Source of the DNA: Anaerolineaceae bacterium
Lineage (GTDB): Bacteria; Chloroflexota; Anaerolineae; Anaerolineales; Anaerolineaceae
Assembly (NCBI GenBank): GCA_030653365.1
Contig: JAURZL010000010.1
Location: 1-64,000 of the forward strand
Length of the DNA stretch: 64,000 bases
Reading direction: 5' to 3'
Part shown: piece by piece, positions 43,796 through 55,345 of the stretch
Layout of the letters: each line of letters starts with the position of its first letter
Numbering within the stretch: the stretch's first letter is position 1
Translations under genes and position numbers: made by a program
The notes under the pieces: model-generated
What the model was told of the DNA's origin: nothing
The model's input: only the letters and a program-made list of their open reading frames with translations
Database searches by the model: none

Positions 43796-46126
43796 TCACC
43801 CAACAACAACATTACTTTCCACCCCCACCGGCATTAACTTCCTGATATTCGGCTGGAAAAGGGTACGCCACGTCTTCTCCTCCTCCCGCGGCGGCAACAA
43901 AATATGCCGCTTCCCAGCCGGCAGGGCAAAATCAAAGGCCAATTGAATACCACCCTTCAACCAGGCGCGCAGATCCACTTCCGGGATGCCCATCGGGTGG
44001 AAGACCGAGGAAGCCGCCCGTACCGCCAACTCATAATAACGCGTCCGGTCCACCCGGCGCGGATCCACCTCCTGCGGCATATCCCAGGCATGCACTTCCC
44101 CCCCATGCATGTACAGCAAACGCACGCGCTGCCCAGGACGAATCGACTTACCAATCGCCAGCAATTGCTGCCCCGCACGAGCCCCAGCAGTCTTGACGGT
44201 ATATTCCTGTGGTTCGCGGCTCAAACGCAATGCCACCAGCAAATCGGTCAGCGGTACCCGTCCCAAGCGCAAATCCGCCAGATGGCGCCGCAGAATTGCC
44301 AGCGCCCCTGGGATGTAATCCGGCAGTTGGTCGGCATCCTCAGCCTGCGCCAGGTACTCCAGTAATTCCATCTGCATGCGCGCCACCCAGGGAGCTGAAT
44401 CCCGCCGGCGTGCTTCCAGACCACGCACCTTGAGTGAGCCATCCTGAAAGACGCCGAAATAGCGGTTGGGTACCGGTACCCGTTCGTTCACGCGCGAGGG
44501 GAGGAACGCCACCCAGCGGTAAACCCCATCCAGGGAGATCGCCAATCCGGTGCGGGTCACGATTTCATCCAGCAGGGGTGCGAAATCCGCCGGCTGGTTA
44601 TAGTCTGGCTGCTGCACCCACAGACCATCCACATACATATGCAACACATTGAAACCAAAATCCTCAGCGGCTTCTTTGGCGCGTAGCAGCGCTTCACGCC
44701 CACCGGCTGTAACCGCCTCATGTGATTCGATGCGTCCAAAACGGGCATTCTTATAGCCGAGATAGCCAAAGCAGGTCACCAGCAGCCACTTGTGCGCACC
44801 GGAACGTTCAGCGTCCAGCTTGCGGCGCGGATCCCAGCGTGGCATCGAGCCCATGCGGTGCTTCAACGCCACCCGTTTTTCCAGCAGCGGCTCCAGGGTG
44901 AGTGGAATCAAGCCTTGCGGCTCAGCGGAAACCTCCAGCAGGCGTGGTTTGGCAGTCTCCGGTGAGATATTACTGCGCACCATGATGGCCGGGTACATCG
45001 AGACAAAATCGATCGCGCCCACATCGCGGTGCAGCCCGACGATGGGCTGGTACACCAATCCACCCAGATCAGACTCGATCAGTTCCAGGGCTGTTTTGGG
45101 ACGTTCTCCCTGCTGTTTATGCCATGGTACCAATATATTATTGTCCAGCGCCGTCAGCACCTGCATGGTGGAGATTCCAGTACCCGGCGAGGTGCGCGCT
45201 GCCACCTGCACCGGCTGGGCGGTCACACGTGCCATTTCGAAAATACCATCCAGACCCAAATCGCCCCAGAAGGTGGCGTTTTTTTGGTCAATATGCCAGC
45301 GTCCAAACAGATGGATCTGCTGGCCGCTGTAGATGATCTGCCCATAGGAAAAGTAGGAGCGCTCCGGACGCTGCAAGTATTTGCGCCCCGGCTCGCGGTT
45401 CAACGCCAGCTCGAATTGATGCTTTTCCATCAAATCAAACAGATACGGCAGCAGCCAGGTATCGCCCCAACGCGTCAGGATCAGGTCGGGATCCAGGCGC
45501 TTGAGGAGTGCCTGCAGGTTGATCAACAGTGGGCGCACCGGCTGCAGTGAAAAGCGGTAGGATTGTCCGTTCATCTGCGCGCACAATGCCAGCGGTGCCG
45601 CGTGCGCAGGATCGCAATCCGGTTCAAGACTCAACACGCGCAATTCCGGCAGTTCCGGATCCAAATCCCAACGCGAGTTTTCCACCACCAGATCCTGAAT
45701 CAAATAAGATTCATAAAAGCGTACCCGGCAGCGGCATAATGGGAAGGTCTTATACTTCGACGCGTGGCGGACTGCCAGATTCAGATCGGCATCGTAATAA
45801 GTCAGGGTGGGGAATTGATCCAGCAATTGGCGAAAGAGACGCTGTTGATCAGTAGAAGAAGCTACTTCCACCGCCAACAAATCCACCATTTCGGGCTGGA
45901 AGAGATCACGTTTCTGATCGCGGCTCAAACGCGGTGCAGCGGGATGATCCTTCAGATAGCGCCAGACCTCTCGCAAGCGTGCTGCCGGACCCGCCACATA
46001 GAAGGTCACCGGGAAGGGGTGATACAGGCGTAAACGCTCGCCTTTATCACTCAGGAACCACACCACCGCCCCAGCTGTCTGTGTGTTCTCAAACACATCC
46101 AGCACCCAGCCGCTAACTTCCTGCAT
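43796..46126 (-). CDS. divergent B-family DNA polymerase
   Basis: A 776-residue polymerase of family B. Polymerase motif A is GAIDFVSMYPAIM (D373). Motif B is HKWLLVTCFGYLGYKNARFG (K446; the usual Asn-Ser-x-Tyr-Gly reads VTCFG). Motif C is HMYVDGLWV: aligned with YGDTDSLFV, the second, metal-binding Asp is kept (D500) and the first is Tyr. The exonuclease half is eroded: the Exo I site reads LSLEPDC, and Exo II reads GDTWLLPYL without its Asp. So proofreading is probably lost while polymerase chemistry may remain. It overlaps the 90-residue gene by 14 nt. Clearly GC-richer than its surroundings, suggesting transfer. Confidence 0.88.
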   Translation of the reverse strand: MQEVSGWVLDVFENTQTAGAVVWFLSDKGERLRLYHPFPVTFYVAGPAARLREVWRYLKDHPAAPRLSRDQKRDLFQPEMVDLLAVEVASSTDQQRLFRQLLDQFPTLTYYDADLNLAVRHASKYKTFPLCRCRVRFYESYLIQDLVVENSRWDLDPELPELRVLSLEPDCDPAHAAPLALCAQMNGQSYRFSLQPVRPLLINLQALLKRLDPDLILTRWGDTWLLPYLFDLMEKHQFELALNREPGRKYLQRPERSYFSYGQIIYSGQQIHLFGRWHIDQKNATFWGDLGLDGIFEMARVTAQPVQVAARTSPGTGISTMQVLTALDNNILVPWHKQQGERPKTALELIESDLGGLVYQPIVGLHRDVGAIDFVSMYPAIMVRSNISPETAKPRLLEVSAEPQGLIPLTLEPLLEKRVALKHRMGSMPRWDPRRKLDAERSGAHKWLLVTCFGYLGYKNARFGRIESHEAVTAGGREALLRAKEAAEDFGFNVLHMYVDGLWVQQPDYNQPADFAPLLDEIVTRTGLAISLDGVYRWVAFLPSRVNERVPVPNRYFGVFQDGSLKVRGLEARRRDSAPWVARMQMELLEYLAQAEDADQLPDYIPGALAILRRHLADLRLGRVPLTDLLVALRLSREPQEYTVKTAGARAGQQLLAIGKSIRPGQRVRLLYMHGGEVHAWDMPQEVDPRRVDRTRYYELAVRAASSVFHPMGIPEVDLRAWLKGGIQLAFDFALPAGKRHILLPPREEEKTWRTLFQPNIRKLMPVGVESNVVVG

Positions 46127-46385
46127 TCAACCCCCGCTGTAAACGCTCAACCTCATCGCGCAAGCGACGCACTTCCTTATGTTCCTCCAGCAGCATCGCC
46201 ACCAGGAATGTCTCCATCGGCAGCACATGCGTGGCATAAGCCGCTGCGGCGATGTGTTGGCGTGCCAGACTGAGTAATTCATCCAATGCCAGTTGATCGC
46301 TGCGTCGTAAGGCGCGTCGAAAACGCGATAATGATTGTTCTTCCTGTAAGAAAACCTGGGTAATGGAGGGTATGGTTCGTCCCAA
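46113..46385 (-). CDS. small helical protein between RecA-like and PolB genes
   Basis: A 90-residue protein, almost wholly helical. The C-terminal 25 residues (EEHKEVRRLRDEVERLQRGL) form a short coiled coil. The N-terminus is TIPSITQVFLQEE. No family recognised. It begins three bases after the RecA-like stop and its 3' end overlaps the polymerase start by 14 nt. Such coupling suggests it is an obligate partner, for example an adaptor between the two larger proteins (inference). Confidence 0.7.
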   Translation of the reverse strand: MGRTIPSITQVFLQEEQSLSRFRRALRRSDQLALDELLSLARQHIAAAAYATHVLPMETFLVAMLLEEHKEVRRLRDEVERLQRGLNAGS

Positions 46386-46388
46386 AGC

Positions 46389-46988
46389 TCACCTTCCTTT
46401 CTGTAATTGTGCTGGTTCAGAGGTCTCAAACGCCGGTAAAAGCGCCGGTTGTTTGGGGGGCTGCACAAGATCATCCGGGGACAATTCCGTCTCCAGACGC
46501 AGCTCGCCCACCTGCGCTTTCAACATATCAAACAGCACCATGCGATCCATGCAAATGGCAGCCGGCAATCGTGTGCTGACCACCACCGGTGCCAGTTTGC
46601 TGAGTTGCTGCAAACGCCAGATTACCTGCCGTAGCAAGCGCTGGCTTTCCGGCAGGTTGACATTCTCATCATAGAATGTTGACAACAGGTCAAATACCAG
46701 GGTCGGGCAGGTAAGCGGCTGCCATTCTTCCAGCAGCACGTCCACCTGATAACAGGTAAACGCCCGCGAAAGCCGAATACGCTCCAGCACCACACGCGGG
46801 TTCTGATGTTGACGGCGGATCGCCTGTGCCACCGGGTAGGCGTTGAAACGATTACCGGCATCCAGCACGCGCAGGTTGCCCTGCAGTGCCAGCCAGGCGG
46901 AAAGCTCCCACATCCAGTTGGAAGCGGCATGTTCACCCATTACCAGAATGATCTGGTTGGGTAATTGTGAGGGGAATAAGCTGTTCAT
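46389..46988 (-). CDS. RecA/RadA-fold protein with degenerate Walker A
   Basis: A 199-residue protein with the strand order of the RecA core. QIILVMGEHAASNWMWELSAWLAL occupies the Walker A place, but the Gly-Lys-Ser/Thr is missing. RVLDAGNRFNAYPVAQAIRR, IRLSRAFTCYQ (a Rad51/RecA-type run) and the Walker-B-like CPTLVFDLLSTF follow, then APVVVST. ATP binding is doubtful. This recalls ImuA, the RecA-like partner of the ImuB/DnaE2 mutasome. The start at 46988 is preferred (AGGG upstream); longer readings enter the LuxR-type gene. A candidate promoter with an 18-bp palindrome lies just upstream. Confidence 0.75.
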   Translation of the reverse strand: MNSLFPSQLPNQIILVMGEHAASNWMWELSAWLALQGNLRVLDAGNRFNAYPVAQAIRRQHQNPRVVLERIRLSRAFTCYQVDVLLEEWQPLTCPTLVFDLLSTFYDENVNLPESQRLLRQVIWRLQQLSKLAPVVVSTRLPAAICMDRMVLFDMLKAQVGELRLETELSPDDLVQPPKQPALLPAFETSEPAQLQKGR

Positions 46989-47006
46989 ATCCCTATCATA
47001 ACAATT

Positions 47007-47024
47007 ATAGAAAATATTTTCTAT
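47007..47024. promoter_or_regulatory. 18-bp palindrome overlapping a -10 box
   Basis: ATAGAAAATATTTTCTAT is a perfect palindrome. On the minus strand a TATAAT (47004-47009) overlaps its end, 16 bp before the RecA-like start codon. The -35 is weak. A repressor operator for an internal promoter is plausible. Confidence 0.5.
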
Positions 47025-47094
47025 CCCACTTGAGGTGATTTTTCGTTTAAAAACGTTTAAGAATCGTTCAAATATGTTGATCTGTAGTGAAAGC

Positions 47095-47502
47095 TCATTC
47101 CCAATGGCTGAAATCCCAATCCGCCAGCAATTGCCGTAGAGCGATCCGATTGGGAAGCCCAAGTTTATTAAGAATATTATGGACATGACTGCGCACCGTT
47201 TCGGGCGCAATTTGCAAACGCGTGGCAATTTGTTGAGTGCGGTATTGCAAACAGATCAGGGCTGCCACCTGCTGCTCACGTTCGGTCAACAATTGCCACT
47301 TCTGCCAGGTTTCGCGTTCAATTTCCACCGATTGCAACTCGCGCGCCAGCAGATCAGCCGCCAGTTGGCGTGGTGTTGAACCACGATAGAGCGCCAGCTG
47401 CTCCAGGGATAACAATAATTCACCCTCCAGGGTAAATGAACGCTTTGATGAAGTAGTTATCTCCGGACGAAAGAACTTTTGAAAAGTATGCCAGATGCTC
47501 AT
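47095..47502 (-). CDS. LuxR-type helix-turn-helix protein
   Basis: A 135-residue protein. The C-terminal 60 residues are a LuxR/GerE HTH (LTEREQQVAALICLQYRTQQIA, APETVRSHVHNILNKLGL). There is no receiver or ligand domain. The N-terminal 65 residues include a putative ribbon-helix-like element (STPRQLAADLLARELQ). It is the first gene of the RecA-like/PolB cassette and could be its own regulator. The ATG lies only six bases after the -10 TACAAT with no Shine-Dalgarno, so the transcript should be leaderless. Confidence 0.82.
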   Translation of the reverse strand: MSIWHTFQKFFRPEITTSSKRSFTLEGELLLSLEQLALYRGSTPRQLAADLLARELQSVEIERETWQKWQLLTEREQQVAALICLQYRTQQIATRLQIAPETVRSHVHNILNKLGLPNRIALRQLLADWDFSHWE

Positions 47503-47508
47503 ACTTCT

Positions 47509-47537
47509 ATTGTATAGAACATTTGTTCTTTCGTCAA
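47509..47537 (-). promoter_or_regulatory. cassette promoter with LexA-type box
   Basis: Minus-strand TTGACG (47532-47537) and TACAAT (47509-47514) are 17 bp apart. Inside the spacer lies AGAACAAATGTTCT (47516-47529), a 6-2-6 palindrome with the GAAC-N4-GTTC core of the Gram-positive SOS box. A bound LexA would block RNA polymerase directly. Confidence 0.72.
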
Positions 47538-48083: not shown

Positions 48084-48112
48084 TTGACGCTTTTTCTGTT
48101 CACCAGTAGAAT
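48084..48112 (+). promoter_or_regulatory. promoter of the fluoride-responsive operon
   Basis: TTGACG (48084-48089) and TAGAAT (48107-48112) with a 17-bp spacer, placing the start at the 5' edge of the riboswitch. Confidence 0.8.
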
Positions 48113-48116
48113 TTCT

Positions 48117-48196
48117 GGTGAGTGATGAGGCTCGCTCGGGAAACCAAACCGCTGAAAGGCTGATAGCTTCTACCCATGTTTTCGGGTAGATTTTTT
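48117..48196 (+). ncRNA. fluoride (crcB) riboswitch with terminator
   Basis: GAGTGATGAGGCTCGCTC, then AAACCGCT and AGGCTGATAGCTTCTAC match the conserved blocks of the crcB RNA motif. The CTAC end overlaps the stem CTACCC/GGGTAG (48170-48175 with 48184-48189), followed by six T. Fluoride binding should hold the CTAC strand and prevent termination. The crcB gene downstream supports the call. Confidence 0.93.
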
Positions 48197-48208
48197 GTTA
48201 ATAGGTCA

Positions 48209-48583
48209 ATGGAAAAAATTCTCTGGATTTCATTCGGTGCTGTATTGGGAGCAAACCTGCGCTACTGGGTCGGTGATTGGGCAGCCCAACGCTTTGGCAG
48301 TGGTTTTCCCTATGGCACCCTGATCATCAACCTCTCCGGGAGCTTCCTGTTAGGGTTGATTGTCTCCATGACCCTGGAACATTTCATCATCGATCCGCGT
48401 CTGCGTATCTTTATGATCGTTGGTTTTTTGGGTTCATTTACAACCTTCTCCACGTATGCTTATGAATCAATTGCCCTGATTTCTCTGGGGCAATGGGGGT
48501 TGGGTCTCTTCAACCTGATTGGATCCAGCTTGCTGGGTGGGCCCTTCGCTCTTCTGGGTATCTGGTTAGGAAAAGTACTTTAA
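48209..48583 (+). CDS. crcB: fluoride channel CrcB/Fluc
   Basis: A 124-residue protein with four transmembrane helices that dimerises into a fluoride-export channel. Conserved features: GAVLGANLRYWVG, GTLIINLSGSFLLG (the pore Asn) and GFLGSFTTFSTYAYE (pore Phe and the central Na+ site). The start is ATG 48209; an in-frame ATG at 48176 lies inside the riboswitch terminator. Under fluoride riboswitch control; the DUF190-CBS gene 85 bp downstream is probably co-transcribed. Confidence 0.95.
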   Translation: MEKILWISFGAVLGANLRYWVGDWAAQRFGSGFPYGTLIINLSGSFLLGLIVSMTLEHFIIDPRLRIFMIVGFLGSFTTFSTYAYESIALISLGQWGLGLFNLIGSSLLGGPFALLGIWLGKVL

Positions 48584-55141: not shown

Positions 55142-55322
55142 GCCCCGAAAACGTGTGTTTTCGGGGCGGAACAGCAAACAAATTGAACAGTTTGCTTACC
55201 TTCTTTTATCCGGACTGTACCGTCGACCCCGGAGTTTCACCGAGTCATGCACCAATGGTGCGCGTGGGTTTTTACCACCGATCGGGAATTGGAACTGCGT
55301 TCCTCACCCTGCCCCGAAGGCT
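55142..55322 (-). ncRNA. FMN riboswitch with terminator
   Basis: The minus strand reads CTTCGGGGCAGGGTGA, then AATTCCCGATCGGTGGTA, ACTCGGTGAAACTCCG, GTCGACGGTA and AGTCCGGAT: the ordered conserved blocks of the RFN element (aptamer about 55199-55322). A downstream stem GCCCCGAAAAC/GTTTTCGGGGC (55142-55167) followed by TTATTTT is the terminator. An AGCAAAC/GTTTGCT pair between them could be part of the switch. FMN should turn the operon off. Confidence 0.95.
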
Positions 55323-55345
55323 TTACTATTTACCTGTTAAAAACA

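Follow-up and report, generated by a model that had tools for sequence, protein, structure and literature searches.

A PolB2 mutasome cassette of Anaerolineae with a predicted two-step SOS circuit

Bacterial PolB2 mutasomes are encoded by three genes in the order iRadA-PPB2 (arCOG07300)-PolB2, as described in the available text of two reports (Makarova 2014, PMC4104785; Timinskas 2025, PMC11791011); in the literature covered, they are known from computation only. The second report recounts the translesion or mutagenic activity and damage induction known for Sulfolobus Dpo2, and draws a parallel with Pol V (UmuC, UmuD', RecA), which likewise combines a polymerase with a small accessory protein and a RecA/Rad51 homologue (PMC11791011).

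The cassette and its mutasome core

The window analyzed here, a 64,000-nt stretch of DNA from an Anaerolineaceae bacterium, carries a four-gene cassette on the minus strand (43796-47502), behind a LexA-type box (Table 1). The earlier note on this DNA had described four co-directional genes for a LuxR-type HTH protein, a RecA-fold protein without the Walker A lysine, a 90-residue helical protein and a divergent family B polymerase, with a LexA-type box and a GC content above that of the flanks, and all these features were recovered. The GC content from iRadA to PolB2 is 0.56 vs 0.45 around; since a GC excess over the local surroundings is seen in 59/61 cassettes, it was ruled out as a mark of recent transfer or acquisition. 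The genes had also been called mostly overlapping, which holds for PPB2 and PolB2 only (14 nt), whereas iRadA and PPB2 are 3 nt apart, and a 106-nt spacer (46989-47094) with its own promoter-like site separates the HTH gene from iRadA. A 279-aa frame overlapping the HTH gene is read as a 5' over-extension.

Table 1. Predicted features of the cassette and its promoters, in window coordinates
Feature	Position	Strand	Basis or remarks
-35 hexamer TTGACG, HTH-gene promoter	47532..47537	-	TTGACG-17-TACAAT pair around the box
LexA-type box AGAACATTTGTTCT	47516..47529		scores 10/10; in the 17-nt spacer of the TTGACG/TACAAT HTH promoter
-10 hexamer TACAAT, HTH promoter	47509..47514	-	6 nt before ATG; leaderless transcript predicted
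Predicted SOS relay regulator, a LuxR/GerE-type HTH protein of 135 aa	47095..47502	-	PF00196, E 1.8e-13
Degenerate phased operator array	47024..47068	-	AACG three times, spaced 11 and 10 nt, followed by TCACC-N5-GTGGGA, which abuts the -35
18-nt perfect palindrome ATAGAAAATATTTTCTAT, iRadA promoter	47007..47024		8/10 as LexA-type box; at least 8/10 in 75/771 background windows
-35-like TAGAAA, iRadA promoter	47018..47023	-	promoter pair analysis
-10 TATGAT, iRadA promoter	46995..47000	-	17 nt from -35; 6 nt before ATG
iRadA, RadA/Rad51-fold protein without recognizable ATPase site	46389..46988	-	AlphaFold2, fold search, motifs; C-terminal QPALL clamp-motif candidate
PPB2 (arCOG07300-like), 90 aa, TTG start	46113..46385	-	N-terminal MGRT motif; profile match to haloarchaeal small proteins
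PolB2, B-family polymerase, 776 aa	43796..46126	-	YVD as motif C, without the first Asp; Asp replaced at the exonuclease positions; QLAFD near C-terminus as clamp-motif candidate

Judged from sequence and fold, the three downstream genes are the bacterial PolB2 mutasome, an already published archaeal-type system, because the gene order, the RadA fold, the MGRT start of PPB2 and the absence of the first Asp from DxD all fit. The earlier idea of an SOS-linked, mutasome-like complex built on a B-family polymerase was thus right, and its gene order is conserved, but the system was already known. The order iRadA-PPB2-PolB2 recurs beyond this genome, being kept in all 61 loci compared (the window and 60 others, fetched because PolB2 was present), four of them with an internal gap of 365-1723 nt (L076, L079, L081, L100), as well as in two haloarchaeal loci, in which PPB2 starts with MGRT or VGRT. 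Three relatives lie on viral contigs, and the 10 plasmid matches listed are all haloarchaeal, with 98 more beyond those listed.

The AlphaFold2 model of iRadA (pLDDT 92) has its best PDB matches among RadA, DMC1 and RAD51 folds (best E 3.4e-7, 18% identity); a Pfam search with this protein gave no domain match. The protein lacks the N-terminal domain and recognizable ATPase residues, and its sequence has no Walker A GxxxxGK[T/S]. With profiles built from these loci, the haloarchaeal proteins at the position of iRadA scored 35-38 bits, and the haloarchaeal small proteins scored 69-70 bits with the PPB2 profile. The window PPB2 begins TTG-GRT, read as MGRT with TTG taken as M, and the GRT start motif is found in 58/61 loci.

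The polymerase matches PF00136 (E 4.8e-22). In the alignment, its DxD motif corresponds to Y498-V-D500, with the first Asp replaced and the second kept, which excludes the initial reading of motif C as having lost the second Asp; D500 is conserved in 61/61 loci, and Tyr occupies the first DxD position in 52/61. The Asp residues are also replaced at the putative Exo I and Exo II positions of the alignments. Asp353, upstream of the palm, is present in 61/61 loci and followed by Leu in the window, Gln in L104 and Lys or Arg in six others displayed; in our reading, this site may be the published D(K/R) motif before the palm.

The three core proteins would assemble into a complex, and published work on archaeal PolB2 suggests a translesion role for the cassette. 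The view that all four proteins act together is retained for this set of three only, and the HTH protein appears to be a regulator rather than a fourth component, because in some genomes it is encoded on another contig and it is missing for 17/57 scored cassettes, in whose genomes no full-length HTH was found. For an 18th (L103), the only copy in the genome belongs to another cassette.

The HTH gene and the two promoters

The AlphaFold2 model of the HTH protein (pLDDT 88) matches mainly GerE/NarL-type DNA-binding domains in Foldseek, and PF00196 (GerE) was found in 20/20 aligned members. The search of this genome yielded one full-length match and 15 weak ones (E 8e-7 or worse). An N-terminal ribbon-helix-helix domain, suspected from the sequence, is not claimed, with no strand in the AlphaFold2 monomer and none among the 25 Pfam families listed.

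LexA-type boxes scoring at least 9/10 occur near the first cassette gene in 49/61 loci vs 5/771 background windows, and at 24/28 of the HTH genes that adjoin the cassette. This genome encodes LexA (PF01726 and PF00717); upstream of lexA and recA, only sites of 8/10 were detected, a level of at least 8/10 being reached in 75/771 background windows as well. Across the genome, the 12-mer GAACNNNNGTTC shows no enrichment (31 sites vs 35 for the reversed control), so the box counts by position only. The palindrome at the iRadA promoter is possibly a weak second LexA site, through which LexA may act there directly too.

Among relatives, the array consists of phased C-tract/GGTTAACC repeats abutting the iRadA -35, the C-tract form being found in L071 and L072 of the same genus. 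In the window, as in G205, the array is degenerate, and the array model R1 had no match in either. Of 24 promoters, 75% have a -10-like hexamer (xAxxxT) at a spacing of 17 nt from the -35 that abuts the array, compared to at most 29% for other spacings, and the 6-nt distance is found in 11/24. Core promoter matches amount to 7.5/12 at array promoters vs 9.7 at LexA-box promoters, an uneven comparison between a fixed position chosen for fit and the best pair. Chains of at least three C-tracts were detected in 12/28 loci with HTH in cis, 3/11 in trans and 1/17 with none (background, 10/4258 windows), and a GTTAACC-like motif in 13/28, 6/11 and 1/17, respectively (background, 92/4258). Autocorrelation was discarded as proof of phasing: z was 3.5 at lag 11 and 4.3 at lag 12, but a control region gave 4.4 at lag 18, and the case for the array therefore rests on the aligned element, the motif counts and the genome search.

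Promoter type across relatives and the predicted relay

We consider it probable, at roughly two chances in three, that this PolB2 mutasome is under a two-step SOS circuit, in which LexA represses the HTH gene and the HTH protein activates the mutasome. LexA would occupy the promoter of the LuxR-type regulator gene; upon its removal by DNA damage, the regulator would be produced, bind the phased C-rich repeats that immediately precede the weak iRadA promoter and turn on iRadA-PPB2-PolB2. Where relatives lack the regulator, LexA would sit directly on the iRadA promoter. Binding of LexA and the HTH protein to these sites is predicted from their sequences. With two such steps, loss of LexA and build-up of the activator, before the mutagenic polymerase is made, the circuit, if real, would be a natural timer for SOS mutagenesis.

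The comparison covered 57 scored loci, 39 with HTH and 18 without, excluding L126-L129, which have a different HTH N-terminus and carry a 10/10 box at the HTH gene, none at iRadA and no array. A LexA box of at least 9/10 is present at iRadA in 5/39 HTH-positive vs 15/18 HTH-negative loci (Fisher p 4e-7), based on heuristic iRadA start calls by which L078 and L099 were scored box-less despite a box of at least 9/10 nearby, against the relay reading, and L093 likewise, in favor of the relay reading; separate box and promoter scans also found a 9/10 box at iRadA in L093. Arrays show the opposite distribution (26/39 vs 1/18, p 1e-5). L103 was scored HTH-negative, the sole full-length HTH of its genome, G355, belonging to the other cassette; rescoring it as positive gives p 2e-6 for the box and 3e-5 for the array. 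For 7 of the 8 array loci without an adjacent HTH gene, the genome carries HTH on another contig, as predicted in advance, and all nine scored HTH genes in trans (L192-L200) have a LexA box of at least 9/10. Model R1, run on 58 genomes, gave 22 matches at E<=1e-3, 20 of them immediately in front of iRadA (15 from the training set and 5 held out); at this threshold, it had no match in the 14 HTH-less genomes and in 23 of the 44 other genomes searched. In one genome, G366, the same predicted regulator-plus-operator unit stands before a TIR-domain gene instead.

The held-out genome G333 agrees with the relay pattern. In 40 further scored loci, the LexA box is present at the HTH gene in 19/20, and at iRadA in 2/20 with HTH beside vs 11/20 without (p 0.006); the contrast in arrays is weak (9/20 vs 3/20, p 0.08). 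HTH and PolB2 also co-occur, in the order (39/46 with HTH vs 31/105 without) and in the family (23/24 vs 20/37). Of the cultured relatives, Leptolinea tardivitalis (G209/L076) and Ornatilinea apprima (G210/L080) carry the box at iRadA itself, with no HTH found; Levilinea saccharolytica (G219/L084) has HTH, no LexA box at iRadA, an 8/10 box at the HTH gene and no array flagged; and Longilinea arvoryzae (G228/L081) has HTH plus a 10/10 box at iRadA. A direct box is kept in four other HTH-positive loci (L090, L096, L122, L123), and no array was found on inspection of L093, L096, L122 and L123. Among 21 loci with a direct box but no adjacent HTH, the genome lacks a full-length HTH in 16 cases and has one in five; the direct-box genomes with HTH (G246, G214, G328, G370, G355) run contrary to the simple prediction. 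G383 (82% complete) has an array and no HTH found.

A rival reading is a plain operon, in which all four genes are transcribed together from one LexA-repressed promoter before the HTH gene and the HTH protein is only an autoregulator or a bystander. Read-through is possible between these co-directional genes, 106 nt apart with the LexA box upstream of the first. However, seven array loci without a LexA box at iRadA have their HTH gene on another contig, which read-through fails to explain, and no role would be left for the array or for its constant spacing from the -10, making a plain operon unlikely. A brake, whereby SOS-induced HTH protein represses iRadA-PPB2-PolB2 and limits the mutagenic pulse (incoherent feed-forward), is very unlikely. 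Although repressors can also make use of repeat arrays close to promoters, and a few promoters join a LexA box with an array or C-tracts (L090; L081, box beside C-tracts), 34/39 HTH-positive loci have no box of at least 9/10 at iRadA, so that nothing obvious would induce this gene under a brake. The array is also located on the upstream side of the -35, where activators usually sit, and its core promoters appear weaker, in the uneven comparison above. A repressor would mean that SOS lowers mutasome expression where iRadA has no LexA box, and an activating HTH protein is therefore favored.

Shared ancestry within a small number of cassette lineages that differ in their promoters, and no functional exchange of regulators, would account for most of the association in a third reading, which we hold to be quite unlikely. 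HTH status does form clusters on the PolB2 tree, with 10 changes vs 15.4 in shuffles, and the tree-corrected contrasts are few, 5 independent pairs only, and not significant (median p of 0.125 in the sign test, range 0.0625-0.625). Against this, at least five changes are well supported. In 200 random pairings, the direct LexA box is on average opposite to HTH in 3.9/5 (same direction, 0.0) and the array goes with HTH in 3.9/5 (opposite, 0.2). Furthermore, G355 harbors both cassette types, one having HTH and the other a direct box. Extending the two-step circuit, a LexA-controlled LuxR-type activator with its own phased operator might be a portable SOS relay in Anaerolineae that repeatedly replaces direct LexA control of this archaeal-derived mutagenic polymerase, can act in trans and delays or thresholds the mutagenic phase; we give this just short of an even chance.

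Relation to known systems

The cassette shares with the described PolB2 mutasomes, in the available text of the reports (PMC4104785, PMC11791011), the three genes in bacterial order, MGRT, an inactivated RadA, the lost first DxD Asp, clamp-motif candidates and a lexA/SOS link. It differs in that Anaerolineae add a gene for the LuxR-type regulator, which has a LexA-type box of its own, and the phased array at iRadA. In the literature covered, no paper pairs 'PolB2' with 'LuxR' and no role for the HTH gene was found, and the main text of PMC11791011 mentions neither LuxR nor GerE. E. coli Pol V differs in its Y-family polymerase, active RecA and other genes.

ImuA-ImuB-DnaE2, like the cassette, is under LexA control and encodes an error-prone polymerase along with a RecA-like protein in one operon. 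It is termed a mutasome in PMC12926913, and had been the earlier model for this layout, but it is not the closest match, given that the system was already published as the PolB2 mutasome (PMC4104785, PMC11791011). It has a Y-family member and a different polymerase family, whereas iRadA is RadA-like; neither Y-family (ImuB) nor C-family (DnaE2) genes are among the four cassette genes. A relationship is excluded, the cassette polymerase being B-family and not C-family, and the likeness is an analogy only.

SOS relays through an activator are represented by PrtR-PrtN, AlpR-AlpA and SetR-SetCD, in which loss of an SOS-controlled repressor frees the activator of a gene set. These serve pyocins, lysis or conjugative elements through their own repressors, whereas the activator in the Anaerolineae cassette is predicted to be controlled by LexA and to serve a translesion polymerase.

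The four genes and their conservation

The four genes are all located on the minus strand, co-directional as the earlier note had stated, but its description of them as mostly overlapping did not hold: PPB2 and PolB2 are the sole overlapping pair (14 nt), and the HTH and iRadA genes are separated by 106 nt. An alternative, 279-aa frame of the RadA-like gene extends into the HTH gene.

Features annotated in the window
Feature	Position	Strand	Remarks
HTH gene (LuxR/GerE-type regulator)	47095-47502	-	Pfam GerE, E 1.8e-13
iRadA (RadA-like gene)	46389-46988	-	no Pfam match
PPB2 (small helical protein)	46113-46385	-	TTG start; Pfam match sub-threshold only
PolB2 (B-family polymerase)	43796-46126	-	Pfam DNA_pol_B, E 4.8e-22
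HTH promoter	47500-47537
iRadA promoter	46986-47023
Degenerate LexA-like palindrome	47007-47024
Fluoride riboswitch-like aptamer	48112-48179	+	31.1 bits vs gathering 34, E 6.8e-7
Gene right after the aptamer	48176-48583		crcB-like by eye
FMN riboswitch	55194-55325	-
Bacterial 16S rRNA gene, 5' end, at window edge	1-116	-

PolB2 relatives (E <=1e-30) were detected in 43 of the 61 genomes of the family, 70/151 of the order and 13/199 of the class. Strains of the genera Longilinea, Levilinea, Leptolinea and Ornatilinea are represented among the named records. In the locus set, comprising the window and 60 fetched PolB2 loci with long flanks, iRadA, PPB2 and PolB2 occur in this order in 61/61 loci, bearing out the expectation that the gene order is conserved beyond this genome. 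Two haloarchaeal plasmid loci share the same order, with small proteins beginning MGRT and VGRT, and profiles of the Anaerolineae loci match their proteins at 35-38 bits (iRadA) and 69-70 bits (PPB2), with E-values that refer to three sequences only. In the viral collection IMG/VR, PolB2 relatives were found on three contigs (37-51% identity; L295, L296 and L297).

LexA-type boxes and the promoter array

In 49/61 loci, a LexA-type box scoring at least 9/10 is present close to the gene that opens the cassette, compared to 5/771 background windows. The LuxR-type HTH gene is directly upstream of iRadA in 32/61 loci, and such a box is present at 24 of the 28 cassette-adjacent HTH genes of the main type. 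In the window, the box occupies the spacer of TTGACG-17-TACAAT ahead of the HTH gene, and the genome encodes LexA with DNA-binding and S24 domains; the sites upstream of lexA and recA in this genome reach only 8/10, a score also attained in 75/771 background windows. In the window, the degenerate palindrome at the iRadA promoter may add direct LexA control. Elsewhere in this genome (contig 3; L130, 331-1513), a 10/10 box, AGAACTAATGTTCT, immediately precedes a candidate SOS gene encoding a radical-SAM/helix-hairpin-helix protein.

Among 57 scored loci (all 61 except L126-L129, in which the HTH N-terminus differs), a direct LexA box at the iRadA promoter is present in 5/39 loci from genomes with a full-length HTH vs 15/18 from those without (p 4e-7), whereas the array of phased C-tract repeats abutting the -35 of this promoter occurs in 26/39 vs 1/18 (p 1e-5), the single HTH-less case being L107 of genome G383. 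Reassignment to the HTH-containing group of L103, scored as HTH-less although its genome (G355) carries an HTH beside its other cassette, yields 6/40 vs 14/17 for the direct box (p 2e-6) and 26/40 vs 1/17 for the array (p 3e-5). Of 46 further loci, 40 were scorable (3 were at edges and 3 were without iRadA): the LexA box was detected at the HTH gene in 19/20, at iRadA in 2/20 with an adjacent HTH vs 11/20 without (p 0.006), and the array in 9/20 vs 3/20, respectively (p 0.08). PolB2 is present in 39/46 HTH-containing vs 31/105 HTH-less genomes of the order, and in 23/24 vs 20/37 of the family. The PolB2 tree shows 10 changes in HTH status, of which at least 5 fall on well-supported branches. 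On average, among 5 independent pairs, the direct box changes opposite to HTH in 3.9 and in the same direction in 0.0, and the array in the same direction in 3.9 and opposite in 0.2; the sign test on these pairs is not significant (median p 0.125, range 0.0625-0.625) because 5 pairs are too few.

The array consensus is approximately TCACCC-N6-GGTTAACCC-N6-TTCCCC-N6-TCACCC-N5-GGGGATTG, with 15 promoters aligned nearly gap-free; L104, L106 and L114 are examples of loci in which it is clear. When the sequence model of the array (R1) was run over 58 whole genomes with stricter filters and a cut-off of E <=1e-3, 22 matches in 21 genomes were obtained, of which 20 are immediately 5' of iRadA, 15 in training genomes and 5 in held-out ones (G218, G333, G208, G332 and G242). 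At this cut-off, no match was found in the 14 HTH-less genomes searched or in 23 of the remaining 44. R1 has no match at E <=1 in the window genome or G205; what remains in both is the 3' portion of the array element and three AACG repeats, spaced at 11 and 10 nt, and the same-genus loci L071 and L072 retain the C-tracts.

Two array copies lie in other settings. In G366, where no PolB2 match was found at E <=1e-30, the R1 match follows an HTH gene bearing a 9/10 LexA-type box and precedes a TIR-domain gene, with no mutasome there (region L331, 3261-4220). In G270, a second copy in the region 2000-3650 of L330 (contig 22) is ahead of a short ORF near a tyrosine integrase gene; the ORF resembles the iRadA N-terminus by eye and has no profile or Pfam match.

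The 3' anchor was found in 24 of the 39 promoters from HTH-containing genomes; of these, 75% have an xAxxxT hexamer at a spacing of 17 nt to the -35 that abuts the array, vs at most 29% for other spacings. The core promoter score is 7.5/12 for array promoters vs 9.7 for 50 LexA-box promoters; this comparison lends weak support because the two scorings differ, with 18 of the 24 array promoters picked because the -10 fits and the best pair taken in the LexA-box set. With the iRadA start taken as the inner ATG at 46988, the -10 ends 6 nt before the ATG in both the HTH and iRadA promoters of the window, a distance found in 11/24 iRadA promoters of HTH-containing genomes, the window included; both transcripts are therefore predicted to be leaderless.

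HTH genes elsewhere in the genome

In the first loci, cassettes without an adjacent HTH gene were of two sorts, with either a direct LexA box at iRadA or the array without a LexA box. The prediction set down before the search was that genomes of the array sort encode an HTH elsewhere and those of the direct-box sort do not. Profile A1, built from 20 HTH proteins, was searched against the 60 genomes. For the array loci (L077, L086, L101, L107, L111, L113, L114 and L116), a full-length HTH is encoded on another contig in 7/8 genomes; in G383 (82% complete; L107), none was found by this profile. For the 21 direct-box loci, 16 genomes lack a full-length HTH, matching the prediction, and five carry one, counter to it: G246, G214, G370, G328 (same contig, 3.7 kb upstream) and G355 (adjoining its other cassette). 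G355 has two PolB2 cassettes (L103, L201), one with HTH and one with a direct LexA box at iRadA. All nine HTH genes on other contigs that were scored (the seven array genomes, G246 and G214) have a LexA box of at least 9/10. In G333, outside the training set, the array is at iRadA, and the HTH gene, on a different contig, has a 10/10 box. Of the cultured species, Levilinea saccharolytica has the regulator and lacks a direct box, Leptolinea tardivitalis and Ornatilinea apprima have the direct box and yielded no regulator, and Longilinea arvoryzae has both.

We consider it probable, at roughly two chances in three given the sequence evidence, that these elements form a relay in which LexA would repress the HTH gene and the HTH protein, acting from the array, would activate iRadA-PPB2-PolB2; the exceptions and the cultured examples, which fit less cleanly, lower this estimate slightly. 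The activating sign of HTH we infer from logic and promoter layout.

Comparison with known PolB2 mutasomes

No paper naming both PolB2 and LuxR was found in a search of main texts, mostly of papers available without subscription. The main text of Timinskas et al. 2025 (PMC11791011) names neither LuxR nor GerE, and LuxR is not mentioned in the accessible part of a 2026 survey (PMC12926913). The HTH neighbour may be listed in supplements or subscription papers.

The window cassette is a known system, the PolB2 mutasome. In PMC11791011, PolB2 is described with iRadA and PPB2, in the bacterial order iRadA-PPB2-PolB2, with lexA enriched near these genes; PPB2 has a conserved MGRT start, and PolB2 has a dead exonuclease and, in most, a substituted first Asp of DxD. 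PPB2 of the window begins MGRT, the PolB2 motif is Y498-V-D500, and the exonuclease Asp positions are replaced in alignments. The iRadA model has a RadA fold (pLDDT 92; Foldseek top match RadA, E 3.4e-7). Candidate clamp motifs are QPALL (iRadA tail) and QLAFD (PolB2), found with loose patterns that match 36/61 iRadA tails and 9/61 PolB tails. One half of the D(K/R) motif, as tentatively assigned, is matched: Asp353 is conserved in 61/61 loci, and the next residue in the window is Leu. The operon had already been described by Makarova 2014 (PMC4104785), tied to lexA in some bacteria, and the 2026 survey classifies the PolB2 system as the G2 group.
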